Part shown: positions 2,969-54,364 of the stretch, in pieces
Layout: each line of letters begins with the position of its first letter
Numbering within the stretch: the first letter of the stretch is position 1
Source of the DNA: Burkholderiales bacterium 70-64
GTDB taxonomy: Bacteria; Pseudomonadota; Gammaproteobacteria; Burkholderiales; Burkholderiaceae_E
DNA: 64,000 nt
NCBI GenBank assembly: GCA_001898645.1
Contig: MKUQ01000040.1
Coordinates: 52,274-116,273, forward strand
Direction of reading: 5' to 3'
Translations under genes and position numbers: made by a program
The notes under the pieces: model-generated
Database searches by the model: none
What the model saw: only the letters and a program-made list of their open reading frames with translations
What the model was told of the DNA's origin: nothing

Positions 2969-4132
2969 CTACTTCGCAGGGTCCTTGAAGTCCGGGAACT
3001 TGTCGAACTCGATGTTGTACAGATGGCCGTCGCGCCGCTCGACCCGCCGCACGTACACCGTCTGCACGATGTCGCGCGTGGCCGGGTCGATGGAGATGGG
3101 CCCGCGCGGGCTCTCGAACTTCATCTGCTTGAACAGCTCCATGGCCTTGTCGGCGTCCATCTTGCCGCCGAGGCCCTTGACCACCTCGGCGATGGCGCGC
3201 ATGCCGTCGTAACCGGCTACCGCCATGAAGTTGGGCCGCCCCGCCGACGGGTTGGCCTCGGCGAAGGCCTTCAGGAACGCCTTGTTCTCCGGGGAGTCGT
3301 GCGCCGCGGAGTAATGGAAGGTGTTGATGATGCCGAGCACCGGATCGCCCATCGCGTCGATCACGTGGTCGTCGGTGAGGTCGCCGGTGGCGATCACCTT
3401 GATGCCGGCCGCCTTCAGACCGCGCTCCTGGAAGCTCTTCATGAAGGCGATGCCGAGCTCGCCGGCCGGCACGAAGACGAACACCGCATCGGGCTTGGCG
3501 TCCTTGATGCGCTGGATGAAGGGGGCGAACTCGGGGCCCTTCAGGGGCACGCGCACCGAACCGACGATCTCGCCGCCGCCGTCCTTGAAGAACTTGCTGA
3601 ACCAGGTCTCGGAGTCGATGCCCGGGCCGTAGTCGGCCACCAGCGTGTACACGCGCTTGATGTCGTTCTTCACCGCCCACGTGCCCATGGGCGCCGAAAT
3701 TTGCGGCAGCGTCATGGAGAAGCGCACCGCATAGGGCGACCTGGTGGTGATCACCGAGGTGGCCGCATTCATGATCACCATCGGCGTCTTGGCCTGGGTG
3801 GCCACCGGCGCGACCGCCAATGCCTCGGGAGTGAGCCCGAAGCCGGCGAGGAAGTCCACCTTGTCGCGCACCACCAGCTCCTGCGCCAGCCGCTTGGCCA
3901 CCTCGGGCGCCGGCCCGGTGGTGTCGCGCACCAGCAGCTCGACCTTGCGCCCGGCCACGGTGCCGCCGTTCTGTTTCAGCCAGGCCTTCATGCCTCCTTC
4001 GATCTGTTCGCCGTAGTCGGCGAACGGACCCGAGAAGGACGCGACCACACCGATGCGCAGCGGCTCCTGGGCCTGTGCCGGCACCATTGCGGCGGCGGCC
4101 GCGATGCCCAATGCCACGACCAAACGCTTCAT
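2969..4132 (-). CDS. Periplasmic substrate-binding protein of Liv type (copy A)
   Basis: Exported solute-binding protein, 387 aa. The start was chosen at 4132 because a GGGGAG ribosome site sits just upstream and the protein then opens with a clear signal peptide (MKRLVVALG, Ala-rich core, cleavage near AQA-QE). The mature part has the Liv/ANF-type fold, with RIGVVASFSGPFADYG at its start. It is the same length as its tandem neighbour at 4244-5407 and nearly identical over most of its length. Differences cluster at the first ligand-pocket loop (VVASF against LIGPF) and around FVPAGELGI against FLPPGEHTI. The ligand is unknown; context suggests an organic acid. Confidence 0.9.
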   Translation of the reverse strand: MKRLVVALGIAAAAAMVPAQAQEPLRIGVVASFSGPFADYGEQIEGGMKAWLKQNGGTVAGRKVELLVRDTTGPAPEVAKRLAQELVVRDKVDFLAGFGLTPEALAVAPVATQAKTPMVIMNAATSVITTRSPYAVRFSMTLPQISAPMGTWAVKNDIKRVYTLVADYGPGIDSETWFSKFFKDGGGEIVGSVRVPLKGPEFAPFIQRIKDAKPDAVFVFVPAGELGIAFMKSFQERGLKAAGIKVIATGDLTDDHVIDAMGDPVLGIINTFHYSAAHDSPENKAFLKAFAEANPSAGRPNFMAVAGYDGMRAIAEVVKGLGGKMDADKAMELFKQMKFESPRGPISIDPATRDIVQTVYVRRVERRDGHLYNIEFDKFPDFKDPAK

Positions 4133-4243
4133 GATGTCTCCCCTCGATCGATCGGCCGATGTTGCGCAATCCGGCCCCGGCGTGTCAACCCGCCGGAACC
4201 GGACCGCCAACTCGCCGGAGTTGGATTGTCTGCCGCTGCCCGT

Positions 4244-5407
4244 CTACTTGGCAGGGTCTTTGAAGTTCGGGAACTTGTCGAACTCGACGTTGTACAGATG
4301 ACCGTCGCGCCGCTCGACCTTGCGCGCGTAGATATTCTGGACGATGTCGCGCGTGGCCGGGTCGATGGAGATGGGTCCGCGTGGGCTTTCGAACTTCATC
4401 TGCTTGAACAGCTCCATGGCCTTGTCGGCGTCGAGCTTGCCGTTGAGGCTCTTGACCACCTCGGTGATGGCGCGCATGCCGTCGTAGCCGCCCACCGCCA
4501 TGAAGTTGGGCCGTCCCCCCGACGGATTGGCTTCGGCGAAGGCCTTCAGGAAAGCCTTGTTCTCCGGCGAGTCGTGCGCCACCGAGTAGTGGAACGTCGT
4601 GATGATGCCGAGCACCGGATCGCCCATGCTGTCGAGCAGGTGATCGTCGGTGAGGTCGCCGGTGGCGATCACCTTGATGCCGGCCTCCTTCAGGCCACGC
4701 TCCTGGAAACCCTTCATGAAGGCGATGGTATGTTCGCCGGGGGGCAGGAACACGAACACCGCCTCGGGCTTGGCGTCCTTGATGCGCTGGATGAAGGGAG
4801 CGAACTCCGGGTTCTTCAGCGGCACGCGCACGGAGTCGATGATCTCGCCGCCGGCGTCCTTGAAGAACTTGCTGAACCAGGTCTCGGAATCGATGCCCGG
4901 GCCGTAGTCGGCCACCAGCGTATAGACGCGCTTGATGCCGTTCTTGATCGCCCAGGTGCCCATGGGCGCCGAGTTCTGCGGCAGGGTCATGGAGAAGCGC
5001 ACCGCATAGGGCGACCTGGTGGTGATCACCGAGGTGGCCGCGTTCATGATCACCATCGGCGTCTTGGCCTGGGTGGCCACCGGCGCGACCGCCAGCGCCT
5101 CGGGGGTGAGCCCGAAGCCGGCGAGGAAATCCACCTTGTCGCGCACCACCAGCTCCTGCGCCAGCCGCTTGGCCACCTCGGGCGCCGGGCCGGTGGTGTC
5201 GCGCACCAGGATCTCGATCTTGCGCCCGGCATAGGTATCGCCGTTCTGCTTCAGCCAGGCCTTCATGCCTCCTTCGATCTGCTTGCCGTAGTCGGCGAAC
5301 GGACCGGAGAACGGCCCGATCAGGCCGATGCGCACCGGCTCCTGGGCCTGCGCCGGCGCCATTGCGGCGGCCGCCGCGATGCCCAGTGCCGCAACCAAAC
5401 GCTTCAT
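4244..5407 (-). CDS. Periplasmic substrate-binding protein of Liv type (copy B)
   Basis: Tandem paralogue of the gene at 2969-4132, also 387 aa. A strong GGAGGAG site precedes two adjacent ATG codons (5410 and 5407); 5407 is used because it gives the same length as copy A. The signal peptide is nearly the same. The central block of about residues 63-145 is almost identical to copy A, while two pocket-flanking segments differ. It probably feeds the same LivHMGF channel with a related ligand. The 111 bp between the copies contains no other gene. The alternative view is a recent duplication with no change in specificity. Confidence 0.9.
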   Translation of the reverse strand: MKRLVAALGIAAAAAMAPAQAQEPVRIGLIGPFSGPFADYGKQIEGGMKAWLKQNGDTYAGRKIEILVRDTTGPAPEVAKRLAQELVVRDKVDFLAGFGLTPEALAVAPVATQAKTPMVIMNAATSVITTRSPYAVRFSMTLPQNSAPMGTWAIKNGIKRVYTLVADYGPGIDSETWFSKFFKDAGGEIIDSVRVPLKNPEFAPFIQRIKDAKPEAVFVFLPPGEHTIAFMKGFQERGLKEAGIKVIATGDLTDDHLLDSMGDPVLGIITTFHYSVAHDSPENKAFLKAFAEANPSGGRPNFMAVGGYDGMRAITEVVKSLNGKLDADKAMELFKQMKFESPRGPISIDPATRDIVQNIYARKVERRDGHLYNVEFDKFPNFKDPAK

Positions 5408-5482
5408 CATGTAGCTCCTCCTTCGTCGTGGATTCATCCTGCCCGGCTCATTCGATGCCGGGCACCGCACCGCACGCGGGCG

Positions 5483-24992: not shown

Positions 24993-25886
24993 ATGAGAAA
25001 CCTGTTCACGCGGGTGGCGCTGATGAGCCGCCCCCAGACCGAGAGCGTCGGCGACGCCGTGCGTGCGATCGCCGCCTTCCTGCGCGAACGCGGCGTGGCG
25101 GTGATGCTCGAGGAGCGGGCCGCCGAGGCCCTCGGCGTGCATGAGGCGGAGGTCGCGAGCCTGGCGCGCATCGGCGCCGAGGCCGACCTGGCGATCGCCA
25201 TCGGAGGCGACGGCACCATGCTCGGGGCCGCGCGCGCGCTGGCCCGGCACGAGATCCCCCTCATCGGCATCAACCACGGACGGCTCGGCTTCATCACCGA
25301 CATCGGGCTCGACACCTGGCGCCAGGCGCTGTCGTCGATCCTGGAAGGCCACTACGCCTCGGAGGAGCGCACGCTGCTCACCGCCCGCGTGGTGCGCAAC
25401 GGCGAGACCGTGTGGAGCGAGCTGGCGCTCAACGACGTAGTGGTGAACCGCTCCTCGCGCACCGGCATGATCGAGATGCAGGTGCACGTCGACGACCTGT
25501 ACATGTACAGCCAGCGCGCCGACGGCCTGATCGTCGCCACCCCCACCGGCTCGACGGCCTACGCGCTGTCGGCCAACGGACCGATCCTGCACCCGCAGGT
25601 CAAGGGCATCGTGCTGGTGCCGGTGGCGCCGCAATCGCTGTCGAACCGCCCGATCGCGCTGCCGGACGACGTGACCGTCACCATCCGCGTGCTCGAGGGA
25701 CGCGAGCCGCGCGTGGCCGGCGACATGCAGGTGTTCAGCGACCTGCAGGTCGGCGACGACATCATCGTGCAGCGCGCGCCGTTCATGACCCACTTCCTGC
25801 ACCCGCCCGGCTACAGCTACTTCGCGACCCTGCGCGGCAAGCTGAACTGGCACGAGCTGCCCAGCCTGCGGGCGATCCAGCGCTAG
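24993..25886 (+). CDS. nadK: NAD kinase
   Basis: Phosphorylates NAD to NADP; 297 aa. The GGDGT motif is at 71-75, followed by LNDVVVNR and the ATPTGSTAYALSANGPILHP block. The start at 24993 (MRNLFTRVAL) is chosen because it gives the normal family N-terminus; the upstream open frame is antisense readthrough of hrcA and hemH. It diverges from hrcA across 210 bp with no other gene visible and is followed 35 bp later by recN. Confidence 0.96.
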   Translation: MRNLFTRVALMSRPQTESVGDAVRAIAAFLRERGVAVMLEERAAEALGVHEAEVASLARIGAEADLAIAIGGDGTMLGAARALARHEIPLIGINHGRLGFITDIGLDTWRQALSSILEGHYASEERTLLTARVVRNGETVWSELALNDVVVNRSSRTGMIEMQVHVDDLYMYSQRADGLIVATPTGSTAYALSANGPILHPQVKGIVLVPVAPQSLSNRPIALPDDVTVTIRVLEGREPRVAGDMQVFSDLQVGDDIIVQRAPFMTHFLHPPGYSYFATLRGKLNWHELPSLRAIQR

Positions 25887-25921
25887 GGCCTGTTCACACT
25901 ACGATCGGCCGTCCCGTCGCG

Positions 25922-27621: not shown

Positions 27622-27742
27622 GAACGTGTGAAGGAACCGTAGCGAGCGGCCCGAGGTCGCGCCGAGAAGCGCAGCTGTACGGGAGTACAGCGAGCATCAC
27701 AGGCGCGAGATCGGGCCGCGCAGTAGGTTCCTTCGCACGTTC
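27622..27742 (-). repeat. 121-bp palindromic 3'-end element, copy 1 (fur)
   Basis: Imperfect palindrome that folds into one long hairpin. Read on the minus strand its outer arms are GAACGTGCGAAGGAACC and GGTTCCTTCACACGTTC, with a GCTGTAC-TCCC-GTACAGC tip. Its first two bases on that strand are the GA of the fur TGA stop. It lies between the convergent ends of recN and fur. Homologous copies of the same length lie at 44918-45038 and 54244-54364. It may serve as a terminator or 3'-end stabiliser for fur. Confidence 0.88.
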
Positions 27743-28166
27743 ACCGGCGGTGGTCGCAGTCGGGCTTCATGCAGCGGCCGTACAGCGACAGGGCGTGATC
27801 CTGGAGCACGAAGCCGTGCTCCTTGGCGATGACCTGCTGGCGCTTCTCGATCTCGGGGTCGTAGAACTCCTCGACGCGCCCGCACTGCACGCACACCAGG
27901 TGGTCGTGGTGCTGGCCGTGATCGAGCTCGAACACCGCCTTGCCCGATTCGAAATTGCTGCGCTTGAGCAGCCCCGCCTGCTCGAACTGCGTGAGCACGC
28001 GATAGACCGTGGCCAAGCCGATGTCCTGGTGCTCCGCGAGCAGCTCGCGATAGACGTCCTCGGCGCTCATGTGGCGCTGCTTGCCCTGCTGGAAGATCTC
28101 GAGAATCTTCAGGCGCGGCAAGGTCGCCTTCAAACCCATGCTCTTCAGTTCGTCGGTGCCTGTCAT
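27741..28166 (-). CDS. fur: Ferric uptake regulator Fur
   Basis: 141-aa iron-responsive repressor. It has an N-terminal winged helix ([36 protein letters not shown]), the [10 protein letters not shown] metal and dimer motif at 86-95, and a second Cys pair at 132 and 137. The start at 28166 (MTGTDELK) fits the usual N-terminus; ATG at 28172 is two codons earlier. It diverges from bamE, the common arrangement in Burkholderiales. Its stop codon is fused to the palindromic element at 27622-27742. Confidence 0.97.
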
Positions 28167-43514: not shown

Positions 43515-44363
43515 TCAGGCGCGGCCCCGCGGCCCGGCCGGCTGCTGCGGGTCGGCAGCGCGCCGCGAATCGGCCGGCCGCCTGCGGTAGGCCCAGACGA
43601 GCAGCGCCAGCCCGGCGGCGAACATCGGCAGGCACAGCCACTGGCCCATGGTGAGACCGAGCGAAAGCACGCCGAGGAAGGCATCCGGCTCGCGGGCGAA
43701 CTCGGCGAGGAAGCGCAGCACCGCATAGCCCGCCAGGAACAGGCCCGAGACGGCGCCCGCCGGCCGTGGCCTGGCCGAGAACCACCACAGCAGCGCGAAG
43801 AGCGCCAGCCCTTCGCCGGCGAACTCGTAGAGCTGCGAGGGATGCCGCCCGAGGCTGTCGACGCGCGGAAACACCATTGCCCAGGGCAGGTCGGTCGGCC
43901 GGCCCCACAGCTCGCCGTTGATGAAGTTGCCCAGCCGGCCGGCGGCCAGGCCGATCGGCACCAGCGGCGCGCAGAAGTCGATCACCGGCCAGAAGCTGCG
44001 GCCACGCCGTTGGCAGTACAGCCACACCGCGGCGATCACGCCGATCAGCCCGCCATGGAACGACATGCCGCCGTGCCACACCGCGAACACCTCGAGCGGG
44101 TGCGCGACGTAGTAGCCGGGCTTGTAGAACAGCACGTAGCCGAGCCGCCCGCCCAGCACCACGCCGATGGCCCCCCAGAAGAGCAGGTCCTCCAGCTCGC
44201 GCTGCGCCAGGCCGCTGGCCTGCGCGAACTGCGGCTTGGCGAGCCGCGCCCGCCCGAGCAGGAAGAAGGCGGCGAAGGCGACCAGGTACATCAGGCCGTA
44301 CCAGCGCACCGCGATCGGCCCCAGCGTGAAGGCGATCGGATCGATTTCGGGATGAATGAGCAT
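43515..44363 (-). CDS. lgt: Prolipoprotein diacylglyceryl transferase
   Basis: 282-aa inner-membrane enzyme attaching diacylglycerol to lipoprotein Cys residues. It has seven hydrophobic spans. The Lgt signature [17 protein letters not shown] is present, as are the catalytic-region [12 protein letters not shown] and [15 protein letters not shown] at 44363 ([12 protein letters not shown]) gives the usual N-terminus; a GTG three codons upstream is possible. It lies close behind the ligase gene on the same strand and diverges from bfr. Confidence 0.96.
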
Positions 44364-44439
44364 TGTTTGCACCGGGTTCTTGTGTCTATTCTTGCATTAC
44401 CCGCGAAACACAGGCACGGTGCACGAACGGAGGTGCCCC

Positions 44440-44919
44440 ATGAAAGGCGACAAGAAAGTCATCGAGTGGCTGAACAAGCAGCTCAAGAACGAACTGACCG
44501 CGATCAACCAGTATTTCCTGCATGCGCGCATTTTCGGCCATTGGGGGCTGCCCGGCCTGCAGAAGTTCGAGTACGACGAATCGATCGGCGAGATGAAGCA
44601 CGCCGATGCGCTCATCAAGCGCATCCTGATGCTCGGCGGACTGCCCAACCTGCAGGACCTCGGCAAGCTGAACGTCGGCGAGAACACCGAGGAGATTCTC
44701 AACAGCGATCTCGCCCTCGAGCGCTCGGTGCTCGATACGCTCAAGAAGGCGATCGCGTACTGTGAGAGCGTGGGCGACTACGTCTCGCGCGAGATCTTCG
44801 TCGAGATCCTCGACGACTCGGAAACCCACGTCGATTTCCTCGAGACGCAGCTCGAGCTGATCGGCCGCGTCGGCCTGCAGAACTACCAGCAGATCCACAT
44901 GACCGAAGAGGCCGCGTGA
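44440..44919 (+). CDS. bfr: Bacterioferritin
   Basis: 159-aa haem-containing iron-storage ferritin. Ferroxidase ligands are in place (Glu18, Glu51, His54) and Met52 is the expected haem ligand in GEMKHAD. The start at 44440 has CGGAGG upstream. A possible promoter is TTGTTT (44363-44368) with TATTCT (44387-44392). It is convergent with its partner bfd. The last two bases of its TGA stop begin the second copy of the 121-bp palindrome. Confidence 0.97.
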
Positions 44920-45038
44920 ACGTGTGAATGAATCTACTGCGCGGTCCGATCTCGCGCCTGCGACGCTCGCCGTACCCCAGTACGGCTACGCTTCTCGGCG
45001 CGACCTCGGGCCGCTCGCTACGATTCCTTCACGCGTTC
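44918..45038 (+). repeat. 121-bp palindromic 3'-end element, copy 2 (bfr)
   Basis: Same family as 27622-27742. The first bases GA are the end of the bfr TGA stop. Outer arms are GAACGTGTGAATGAATC and GATTCCTTCACGCGTTC; the tip is GCCGTAC-CCCA-GTACGGC. It sits between the convergent bfr and bfd genes. The remaining 131 bp up to bfd is GC-rich and shows no gene. Confidence 0.88.
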
Positions 45039-49498: not shown

Positions 49499-49617
49499 GG
49501 GGGAAAGTGCTCGCGGAACCGGAGCGGCTATTATCGCCTGCGGGTCGGCGCCGACCGGCCCGATACCCTGCCATCGCCGCCGTCACCGCCGTCATCGCCA
49601 TCGCCGCCCTCACCGTC

Positions 49618-50639
49618 ATGAAACCCTGCTCCCGGCCCAGGCCACGCGCGCTGCCGCGCCGCTTTCGCCGGCCTCGCCTGCTCGTGGTCGGCTGCGGCGA
49701 CGTCGGGCTGCGCCTGCTCGCCCAGCTCGCGCCGCGCCTGCGCCGCTCGCTCGACGTGCTGGCGCTCTCGCGGCGCCCGGCGCAGCGCGAAGCGGCCCGC
49801 GCGCTGGGCGCGCGCGCGCTCGCCGCCGATCTCGATGAAACGCGCTCGCTGCGGCGGCTGGCCGCCTTCTGCGACCGGGTCGTCTATCTCGCGCCCCCGC
49901 CGGGCAGCGGCGACGACGATCCGCGCATCGCGCGCTTCATCGCCGCCTGCCGCACCCACCTGCGGCGCGAGCGCAGGGATCGCGGCATGCCGCCCGCGCG
50001 ATGGACCTATGTGGGCACCACCGGCGTATACGGCGACTGCGCCGGCGCATGGGTCGAGGAGTCGCGCCCGGTGGCCCCGCTCAGCGCACGCGCCCGGCGC
50101 CGCGTGGCCGCCGAGCGGCGCGTGCGCGCCCTCTCGGCCGCGGGGCTGGCGCGCGTGGCGCTGCTGCGCGCGCCGGGCATCTACGCGCACGACCGGCTGC
50201 CGCTGCGGCGCCTGCGCGAAGGCACCCCGGCACTGCGCGAGGCCGACGACGTCTATACCAACCACGTGCATGCCGACGACCTCGCCCGCGCGGCCTGGCT
50301 GGCGCTGGCGCGCGGACGGCCCGGGCGCGTCTACAACGCTGTCGACGACAGCGCGCTGAAGATGGGCGACTACTTCGACCTGGTCGCGCGCGCGCTCGAC
50401 CTGCCGCCGCCGCCGCGCCTGTCGCGTGCAGCGATCACCGAACAGGTGGGCGCCGCGACGCTGTCGTTCATGAGCGAATCGCGCCGGCTCGCCAACCGAC
50501 GGCTGGTGCGCGAGCTGCGCTGCGGGCTGCGCTGGCCGACGGTCGCCGACACGCTGGCCGATGTCACGCGCGGCAGGAGCGCTCTGCTATACTCCTGCCC
50601 TCTCCCGCCCGGGCAGGATCTTCCGGGCCGTGGAACCGT

Positions 50640-50649
<10 letters not shown>
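49618..50649 (+). CDS. NAD-dependent epimerase/dehydratase-like SDR
   Basis: 343-aa extended SDR. After a basic N-terminus the Rossmann start LLVVGCGDVGLRLL has the glycine motif GCGDVG. The segment YVGTTGVYGD supplies the catalytic-region Tyr, and VYTNHVHADDLARAAWLALA lies near the C-terminal third. The ATG at 49618 was chosen; the longer reading adds a hydrophobic stretch without a ribosome site. The stop TAG (50647-50649) lies inside the tRNA-Thr gene. Substrate unknown. Confidence 0.82.
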
Positions 50650-50715
<66 letters not shown>

Positions 50716-53058: not shown

Positions 53059-53528
53059 TACAGGATCCCGAGGATTTCGACTTCGAAGCGGATCGGCTGG
53101 CCGGCCAGCGGGTGATTGAAGTCGAACAGCGCATGGCGCTCGTCGATCTCCTTGAGCACGCCCGCGAAGCGTCCGCCGTCGGGCGCGGAGAACTCGACCA
53201 CGTCGCCGGGCTGGTAGTCGGCATCGCGGCGCGTATCGGCCTCGAGGGCGGCGCGGCTGAGCCTTTGCACCAGGGCCGGATTGCGCGCGCCGAAGGCCTG
53301 CTCGGGAGACAGGTCGAAGCGCGCGCGCGCGCCCTCGGCCAGGCCGATCAGGCATCGTTCGAGCGGCTCGGCCAATTGGCCGAGGCCGACCTGAAGGGTG
53401 GCAGGCCGATCGCCGAAAGTACTAATGACGTCCTCCCCGGATTCGGCCAGACTGATCCGGTAGTGCAGCGTCAGATGCGAATCGGCCGCCACCGTTGCAG
53501 GAGCGGCCGCGTCAGGAGTGCTTGTCAT
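53058..53528 (-). CDS. fkpB: FKBP-type peptidyl-prolyl isomerase (FkpB/SlyD-like)
   Basis: 156-aa SlyD/FkpB-type isomerase. [20 protein letters not shown] opens the FKBP fold. [20 protein letters not shown] is the conserved helix region. The insert-in-flap segment and the end [17 protein letters not shown] are also present. The start may be 53528 or 53537 (MTG before MTSTPD); neither has a clear ribosome site. It is co-translated with ispH and diverges from radC. Confidence 0.92.
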
Positions 53529-53564
53529 GCCCGTCATTCTAGTGCGCCCCGGCCGGGTCCGGAC

Positions 53565-54245
53565 GTGGGAACCCCGTTGAGGATCCGTGATTGGCCGATC
53601 GACCAGCGCCCGCGCGAACGCCTGCTGGCCGGCGGCGCCGCGGGGCTCTCCGACGCCGAGCTGCTGGCGGTGCTGCTGCGTACCGGCAGGGCCGGCAAGC
53701 ACGCGGTCGAGCTGGCCCGGGAGCTGCTGGTCGAGTCGGGCGGCCTGCGCGCGCTCATCGACGCCCGCCATCCCCTGCAGGCAGCGGGGCTGGGTCCGGC
53801 CAAGCGCGCGCAGCTGCAGGCCGCGGTCGAGCTCGCGCGACGCAGCCTGCGCGAGGAGCTGTGCAGCCGCGACACCCTCGCCTCGCCGGCCACGGTGCGC
53901 GAGTTCCTGTCGCTGTGGCTGCGCGATCGCAGCCGCGAGATCTTCGCGGTCATGTTCCTCGACGCCCAGAACCGGCTGATCGCAGCCGAGGAGCTGTTCC
54001 GCGGCACCCTGACGCAGACTGCGGTCTACCCGCGCGAGGTGGCGCGGCGCGCCCTCGAGCTGGACAGCGCCGCGCTGATCCTGGCCCACAACCATCCCTC
54101 CGGAGTGGCCGAGCCGAGCATGGCCGACCGGGCGTTGACCCAGGCGCTGAAGAGCGCGCTGTCGCAGCTGGACCTGCCGGTGCTCGATCACCTGATCGTG
54201 GCCGGCAATCGCTGCTTCTCGTTCGCCGAGGCGGGCCTGCTCTGA
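53565..54245 (+). CDS. radC: RadC/JAB-domain protein
   Basis: 226-aa RadC-family protein. The N-terminal part IRDWPIDQRPRERLLAGGA and the helix-hairpin-helix-like AAGLGPAKRAQLQAAVELAR precede a JAMM-type metal site HNHPSGVAEPSMAD. It is conserved and mobile-linked, but its biochemical role is unsettled. The start is uncertain: GTG 53565 is used, TTG 53577 is possible, and ATG is absent. The TGA stop supplies the first two bases of the third palindromic element. Confidence 0.9.
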   Translation: MGTPLRIRDWPIDQRPRERLLAGGAAGLSDAELLAVLLRTGRAGKHAVELARELLVESGGLRALIDARHPLQAAGLGPAKRAQLQAAVELARRSLREELCSRDTLASPATVREFLSLWLRDRSREIFAVMFLDAQNRLIAAEELFRGTLTQTAVYPREVARRALELDSAALILAHNHPSGVAEPSMADRALTQALKSALSQLDLPVLDHLIVAGNRCFSFAEAGLL

Positions 54246-54364
54246 AAGTGTGCAGGAATCTACTGCGCGGTCCGATCTCGCGCCTGCGATGCTCGCCGTA
54301 CTCCAGTACGGCTGCGCTTCTCGGCACGACCTCGGGCCGCTCGCTACGATTCCTGCACACTTTC
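54244..54364 (+). repeat. 121-bp palindromic 3'-end element, copy 3 (radC)
   Basis: Third copy. Its outer arms GAAAGTGTGCAGGAATC and GATTCCTGCACACTTTC are perfectly complementary, and the tip is GCCGTAC-TCCA-GTACGGC. It begins at the GA of the radC TGA stop and ends before the rpmB promoter (54423-54452). The arms differ from copies 1 and 2 at paired positions on both sides. It would isolate radC from rpmB. Confidence 0.9.

Follow-up and report, generated by a model that had tools for sequence, protein, structure and literature searches.

The window, a 64-kb stretch of DNA from Burkholderiales bacterium 70-64, contains three full copies of a 121-bp element, each joined to the end of a gene. 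Copy 1 (27622–27742, minus strand) lies 3' of fur (27741–28166, minus strand; PF01475, E 7.5e-47). Copy 2 (44918–45038, plus strand) lies 3' of a gene for a bfr-type ferritin (44356–44919, plus strand; PF00210). Copy 3 (54244–54364, plus strand) follows radC (53112–54245, plus strand; PF04002), with arms at 54244–54260 and 54348–54364 and an apical loop at 54302–54305.

In each case, the first two bases of the element, GA, are also the end of the TGA stop codon of the upstream gene, and the element is oriented as that gene is. The coordinates, common length, stop codons and orientation given by a first-pass annotation of this DNA were all borne out, as was the full complementarity of the 17-bp arms of copy 3. 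The copies form long imperfect hairpins. Four folds, of both strands of copy 3 and of the sense strands of copies 1 and 2, have z values between -9.4 and -11.1.

Two further features were observed in the window. The neighbouring genes at 2969–4132 and 4244–5410 carry identical repeat arms and look like a tandem duplication (2969–5410). The last few bases of a long open reading frame at 49507–50649 overlap a tRNA-Thr gene (50640–50715), so that its end may be miscalled or the arrangement may reflect a tRNA-associated insertion.

Copies, size forms and layers

The genome to which the window belongs comprises 4.72 Mb in 63 contigs and is 98% complete. It holds 31 near-full-length copies, a set from which the decayed or interrupted copies L031–L038 are excluded. 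The 121-bp element is one of dozens of dispersed, non-coding hairpin copies found genome-wide. Its terminal inverted repeats are 17 bp long, and 472 of 510 arm pairs are Watson-Crick in 30 copies (L026 left out). Smaller forms also occur. Some are internally deleted, and six model matches at different places share an identical length of 62 bp. Five are shells of 37–40 bp that lack the core. Single arms are numerous, the arm pattern giving 236 matches compared with 24 for its reversed control.

Covariation was followed in 38 diverse copies. In these, 93.3% of cells pair, and double changes occur in 27 of 45 pairs. Double-change cells number 193, compared with 46.8 in shuffles (none of 500 reaches 193) and 25–45 for slid partners. 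The pairing is kept, either by selection or by the copying of one arm from the other; the pattern would be expected of RNA and of single-stranded DNA alike. Mismatches in the arms (L026 left out) are G.U in 7 cases and A.C in 15 in this genome, and 2 and 12, respectively, in another genus of the family. These types lean towards the lower strand as the folding strand; since the copies are related, no claim is made from them.

The element has a layered build, in which a 37-bp shell encloses a core that lies between two copies of CTAC; two copies of the element contain further palindromes. CTAC flanks the core on the left in 22/31 and on the right in 27/31 copies (GTAG on the lower strand), and none is found at the outer ends of the shell. 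One locus, L336, consists of a 37-bp shell with CTAC in its loop. Judging from lengths and junctions, the arrangement looks like the result of an 84-bp unit entering the shell at a lower-strand GTAG. Further layers are seen in L031 (1108–1378) and L032 (1308–1689). In both, the apical loop of the core is occupied, at CTAG, by a member of a second palindrome family, e2; in L032 a third family, e3, lies inside e2. A truncated 5' end of e2 (TAGGGCCTGTTCACACTACGATCG) also occurs in the window at 25884–25909 on the plus strand, where its TAG is the stop codon of the gene at 24993–25886.

The first-pass annotation had suggested that the element might terminate mRNA. An intrinsic terminator of the U-tract type was rejected, because none of the 31 copies is followed by TTTT within 20 nt. 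A search of eight loci with copies against Rfam 15 gave two weak matches only, both below the gathering score and outside the element.

Contact with stop codons

Copies were oriented by their asymmetric core, and coding-like open reading frames ending nearby were listed on both strands. Genes were called by reading frame together with GC3-GC2 or codon usage, in place of a standard gene caller, and the offset tallies for all genomes were compiled by hand from the listings for each copy.

A same-strand stop codon ends at element position -1 to +2 in 25/31 copies (8 copies at position 0, 3 at +1, 13 at +2 and 1 at -1). Five further copies have an open reading frame that reaches +10, using a TGA inside the arm, which brings the number ending at -1 to +10 to 30/31. 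Sense orientation is fixed in 30/31. The exception, L017, has no sense reading frame ending at its left end, and an antisense one ends at +10. At the right boundary, an open reading frame ending at -1 to +2 was found in 0/31 copies, and no sense reading frame ends 2–250 nt before the element (0/31). Among the reduced forms, a stop lies at -1 to +2 in 9 of 12 short forms (L322 and L323, of family e3, left out) and at -2 to +2 in 11 of 16 solo arms, and three of the five shells adjoin a stop.

The position-specific, oriented placement proposed in the first-pass annotation thus holds for the genome as a whole and, as described below, for several others. TGA was also taken there as the starting point of the element. 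This stands for 23 of the 25 stops here, the other two being TAG, but TGA is not required, since related copies occur at TAG and TAA stops.

Chance placement can be rejected. If the copies are treated as independent, uniform intergenic placement would give 25/31 at stops with p about 7e-42, and 23/31 at TGA stops would arise with p about 4e-10 if extragenic TGAs were used at random. A target consisting simply of TGA or CTGA was likewise rejected. According to a simple gene caller written for this purpose, only 42 of 198 extragenic TGAs in the window (21%) act as stops, and 31% of extragenic CTGAs do; with random use, many copies would be expected away from stops.

The junctions are of more than one type. 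Among them are a complete TGA followed by GAAC and a single T followed by GAAC. In this genome TGA follows the right end in 14/31 copies and stands on both sides in 5/31; in the other genus of the same family the counts are 10/26 and 8/26, respectively. Copies with TGA on both sides may reflect a target-site duplication, and most others show no duplication. The right-hand TGA would look the same whether it came from a 3-bp target duplication or from a right end equal to the target. A T directly precedes the element in 13 copies, only 3 of which have a right-hand TGA, so that two junction types have to be explained.

Two of the three host genes in the window, fur and bfr, handle iron, and a special link to iron had been raised. 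Twenty of the 31 hosts were scanned, and 16 had a Pfam family. These include RecA, glyA-type SHMT, GlutR, signal peptidase II (lspA), FlhC, AnmK, PilY1 and NnrS, among others, and the host of L002 is of an iron-sulphur assembly type. SecB is, by eye, the host of the interrupted copy L031. With functions so mixed, the scanned hosts do not support a special link to iron genes.

Empty sites and related genera

The end of radC was fetched from 17 relatives; the gene end is present and the element is absent in 16/16 readable cases (L132 is masked). Ten sites, radC included, were compared with genome G004, and all are empty there. At six of these (L001, L009, L010, L014, L026 and L027) the native stop codon of G004 lies in the same column. 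At L008, L012, L016 and L018 the C-terminus differs from that of G004 by some codons. At L027, the stop seems to be the point where two genes of G004 meet directly, and the insertion would split a tight pair. No obvious hairpin is present at the ten empty sites, as judged by eye only. These comparisons are with relatives, among which there is no near-identical strain pair and no fresh insertion was seen. A regular-expression look at bfr ends in relatives returned none, and an empty site for copy 2 is not part of the evidence; a RadC scan of viral contigs gave nothing of use. The absences at radC and at the ten G004 sites suggest that the element moves or is often lost, and so the signs of mobility implied by the first-pass annotation are present.

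Similar contact is found with other arms. Another genus of the same family is represented by four genomes (main arm GAAGCCGTGAATAAACC), and a sense stop lies at -1 to +2 in 21/26 of the copies scored there. In a third genus, represented by G021 with several arm sequences, it does so in 11/14. Both TGA and TAG serve as stops in these genomes, and the right boundary lies at a stop in 0/40. The scored copies represent 15 of 23 matches in G087, 5 of 15 in G090, 3 of 10 in G092, 3 of 10 in G031 and 14 of 33 in G021; in tandem arrays of G021 the copy adjoining the gene was scored. L282 was counted as a miss, though by eye a TAA lies one base before the element.

Arrays of this kind were seen in G021 3' of one gene, as three head-to-tail copies with a spacing of about 124 bp and differing outer arms (L080, 1239–1609, on G021:C22; L291, on G021:C12).

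The genome collection was searched with a pattern whose gap length did not admit the form present in this genome. Its only matches came from Massilia and Janthinobacterium, and the better-scoring ones were scored in both. Janthinobacterium sp. GW456P has 105 model matches. In three genomes of Janthinobacterium the contact is looser: 17/38 copies are exact and 28/38 fall within -7 to +14, at TAA, TAG and TGA stops, and an antisense stop lies at the right end in 2/38. In two genomes of Massilia the core is the same, the arms are mostly GGGGACCTCGAA, and sense stop contact is found in 0/12, with an antisense stop at the right end in 2/12. Since Massilia combines the same core with other arms and no sense contact, the contact seems to go with the outer shell or its mover and not with the core. 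The first-pass annotation had held that the coupling would be due to chance if most copies were unrelated to stop codons; this is not so in the genome of the window, with 25/31 at stops, but it is so in Massilia.

Other palindrome families were scored by row, with L256 left out. One family, in G004, has another core and shares the layout of the element, with TGA followed by GAGCCTGTGAA at the left end and TTCACAGGCTC followed by TGA at the right, and a stop was scored in 5/8 rows. Family e2 (TAGGGC...), with e3 nested inside, has a TAG stop in 5/16 rows. Seventeen near-identical composites of e2 with e3 were observed in G004 (L245–L260 and L263), several of them in the same kind of flanking repeat.

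The contact is real, general and unusual. Its most likely cause is targeted insertion, which we favour at slightly better than even chances. The evidence for it consists of the sense contact in 25/31 copies with none at the right end (0/31), the short forms (9/12) and solo arms (11/16), the like behaviour of other arms (21/26 and 11/14, right end 0/40), the empty sites, the 62-bp matches, the G004 family (5/8) and the covariation. Against it count the lack of a mover in the searches, the 0/12 of Massilia, the looser contact in Janthinobacterium (17/38 exact) and the two junction types.

The main rival is selection for position, which we consider distinctly less probable though not negligible. 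Hairpins would then insert at many places but persist only if they begin, in sense, at a stop codon, being harmless there or useful for the end of translation or for mRNA stability. The fixed sense orientation (30/31) and the compensatory changes agree with this, as do the effects on translation reported in the available part of PMC12306157 for REPs within 15 nt of a stop. However, the absence of the element at radC in 16/16 relatives indicates no lasting need there, and the hosts are unrelated genes. Moreover, a hairpin 20–50 nt downstream should be equally harmless, yet 0/31 copies have a sense reading frame ending 2–250 nt before them. A further reading can be considered in which the mobile hairpin recognizes the stop codon as such, be it TGA, TAG or TAA, and docks in sense orientation inside that triplet. 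It would then be a mobile element that reads where translation ends, possibly by way of mRNA ends made by the ribosome. This reading is offered tentatively and as unlikely.

Known systems and a possible mechanism

The attC sites of integrons are long imperfect hairpins that lie directly 3' of a stop codon in fixed orientation. The element differs from them in that it lies at dispersed core genes with no cassette array seen, and in that its outer arms are fully paired.

The element is best placed with the REP/MITE kind. It shares several features with the MITEs ERIC, YPAL and RUP, which PMC3733652 describes as short repeats that lack coding capacity, end in inverted repeats, occur in internally deleted forms and are cotranscribed with neighbouring genes. 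It differs from them in that no partner IS was found here. No autonomous partner with the same ends was found around two PF01609 genes or at 20 further arm loci, and an IS5-like parent with these ends was not found at the two PF01609 genes. A review of MITEs (PMC10969869) contains no occurrence of "stop codon" and does not mention placement at stops.

Another relationship is with the GTAG/CGTC REPs and REPINs. According to the portion of PMC3733652 drawn on, these are dispersed palindromes, mostly intergenic, that lie mostly near the 3' ends of open reading frames (<20 bp where these are convergent) and whose ends can serve as TAG stops. One explanation, which we regard as rather improbable, is that a GTAG-tagged, REP-like core was spread by a RAYT since lost here and that contact with stops simply reflects the closeness to gene ends already known for REPs. 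The lower-strand GTAG copies on both sides of the core (CTAC left 22/31, right 27/31) are as this would predict, and the published excerpt on GTAG REPs near 3' ends and their TAG stops (PMC3733652) also agrees. However, the contact here is exact and orientation-locked, not merely within 20 bp, and it follows the outer shell, which has no GTAG tag at its ends. The element is also longer, at 121 bp (shells 37–40 bp) compared with 20–40 bp for REPs. The Y1 transposase of RAYTs (PF01797) had no match in the genome of the window, where a RAYT acting in trans was therefore rejected; 5 of 14 control genomes were positive. Across 74 genomes PF01797 shows no association with the element (7/23 with it, 13/51 without). 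Because this test of the enzyme came out negative, the element is kept apart from the RAYT system.

In E. coli, ribosome stalling is reported for REPs no more than 15 nt from a stop, a distance that applies to 446 of 4,072 predicted REPs (PMC12306157). They resemble the element in being hairpins shortly 3' of a stop, and differ in that contact here is exact in 25/31. IS1272 is described in an excerpt of PMC5678879 as replacing stem-loops, a palindromic element thus interacting with palindromic targets. The palindromes nested in palindromes found here are similar; in contrast, the ten empty stop sites lack an obvious hairpin by eye, and no such transposase with these ends was found at the two PF01609 genes. 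An exact, orientation-locked stop contact across genera is not described in the consulted parts of PMC3733652, PMC12306157 and PMC5678879, and no description of this element was found in the open literature searched.

Copy number, size variants, presence or absence among relatives, orientation, junctions, covarying pairing and layering are direct observations. Together with the signs of mobility, the oriented placement at stops makes the "selfish palindrome that targets stop codons" the best-fitting of the readings first proposed. The element can be described, again with a little more than even confidence, as a REP/MITE-like mobile hairpin that is orientation-locked at stop codons, likely by targeted insertion through an enzyme not found in the searches. 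In such a mechanism, the element would move as a non-autonomous REP/MITE-like unit, and a folded single strand would be joined 3' of a stop codon. The TGA that often follows the right end (14/31) may represent a match of target and right end, as in the single-strand insertion of IS200/IS605 and TnpA-REP, although a 3-bp duplication looks alike. Later deletions would take downstream parts and could not cross the stop codon, leaving solo left arms. Once placed, the element would put a strong hairpin at the very start of the 3' UTR, where it would probably affect the end of translation or the 3' trimming of mRNA, as reported for REPs near stops.

Alternatively, the joining may take place on mRNA. 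Here an enzyme or a ribosome-linked cut would open the message inside the stop codon, the hairpin would be joined at that point and the product would be copied back to DNA. Such a route would account for the like contact with TGA, TAG and TAA, for junctions that fall behind the first, second or third base of the stop codon, for the sense orientation and for the many solo left arms. We consider it very improbable, as it leaves the frequent right-hand TGA unexplained, plain deletions also give solo arms, and e2 entered the loop of the element at CTAG, where there is no stop codon.

Bacteria are known to carry palindromic repeats close to the ends of genes, for reasons that remain open. The contact described here is exact, oriented and common to genera with different arms, and the sister set in Massilia, with the same core and no contact, provides a contrast that makes the cause testable. 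If insertion itself finds stop codons, as targeted insertion would have it, the element would follow a safe-harbour strategy under which all host genes stay intact, recA and lspA among them.
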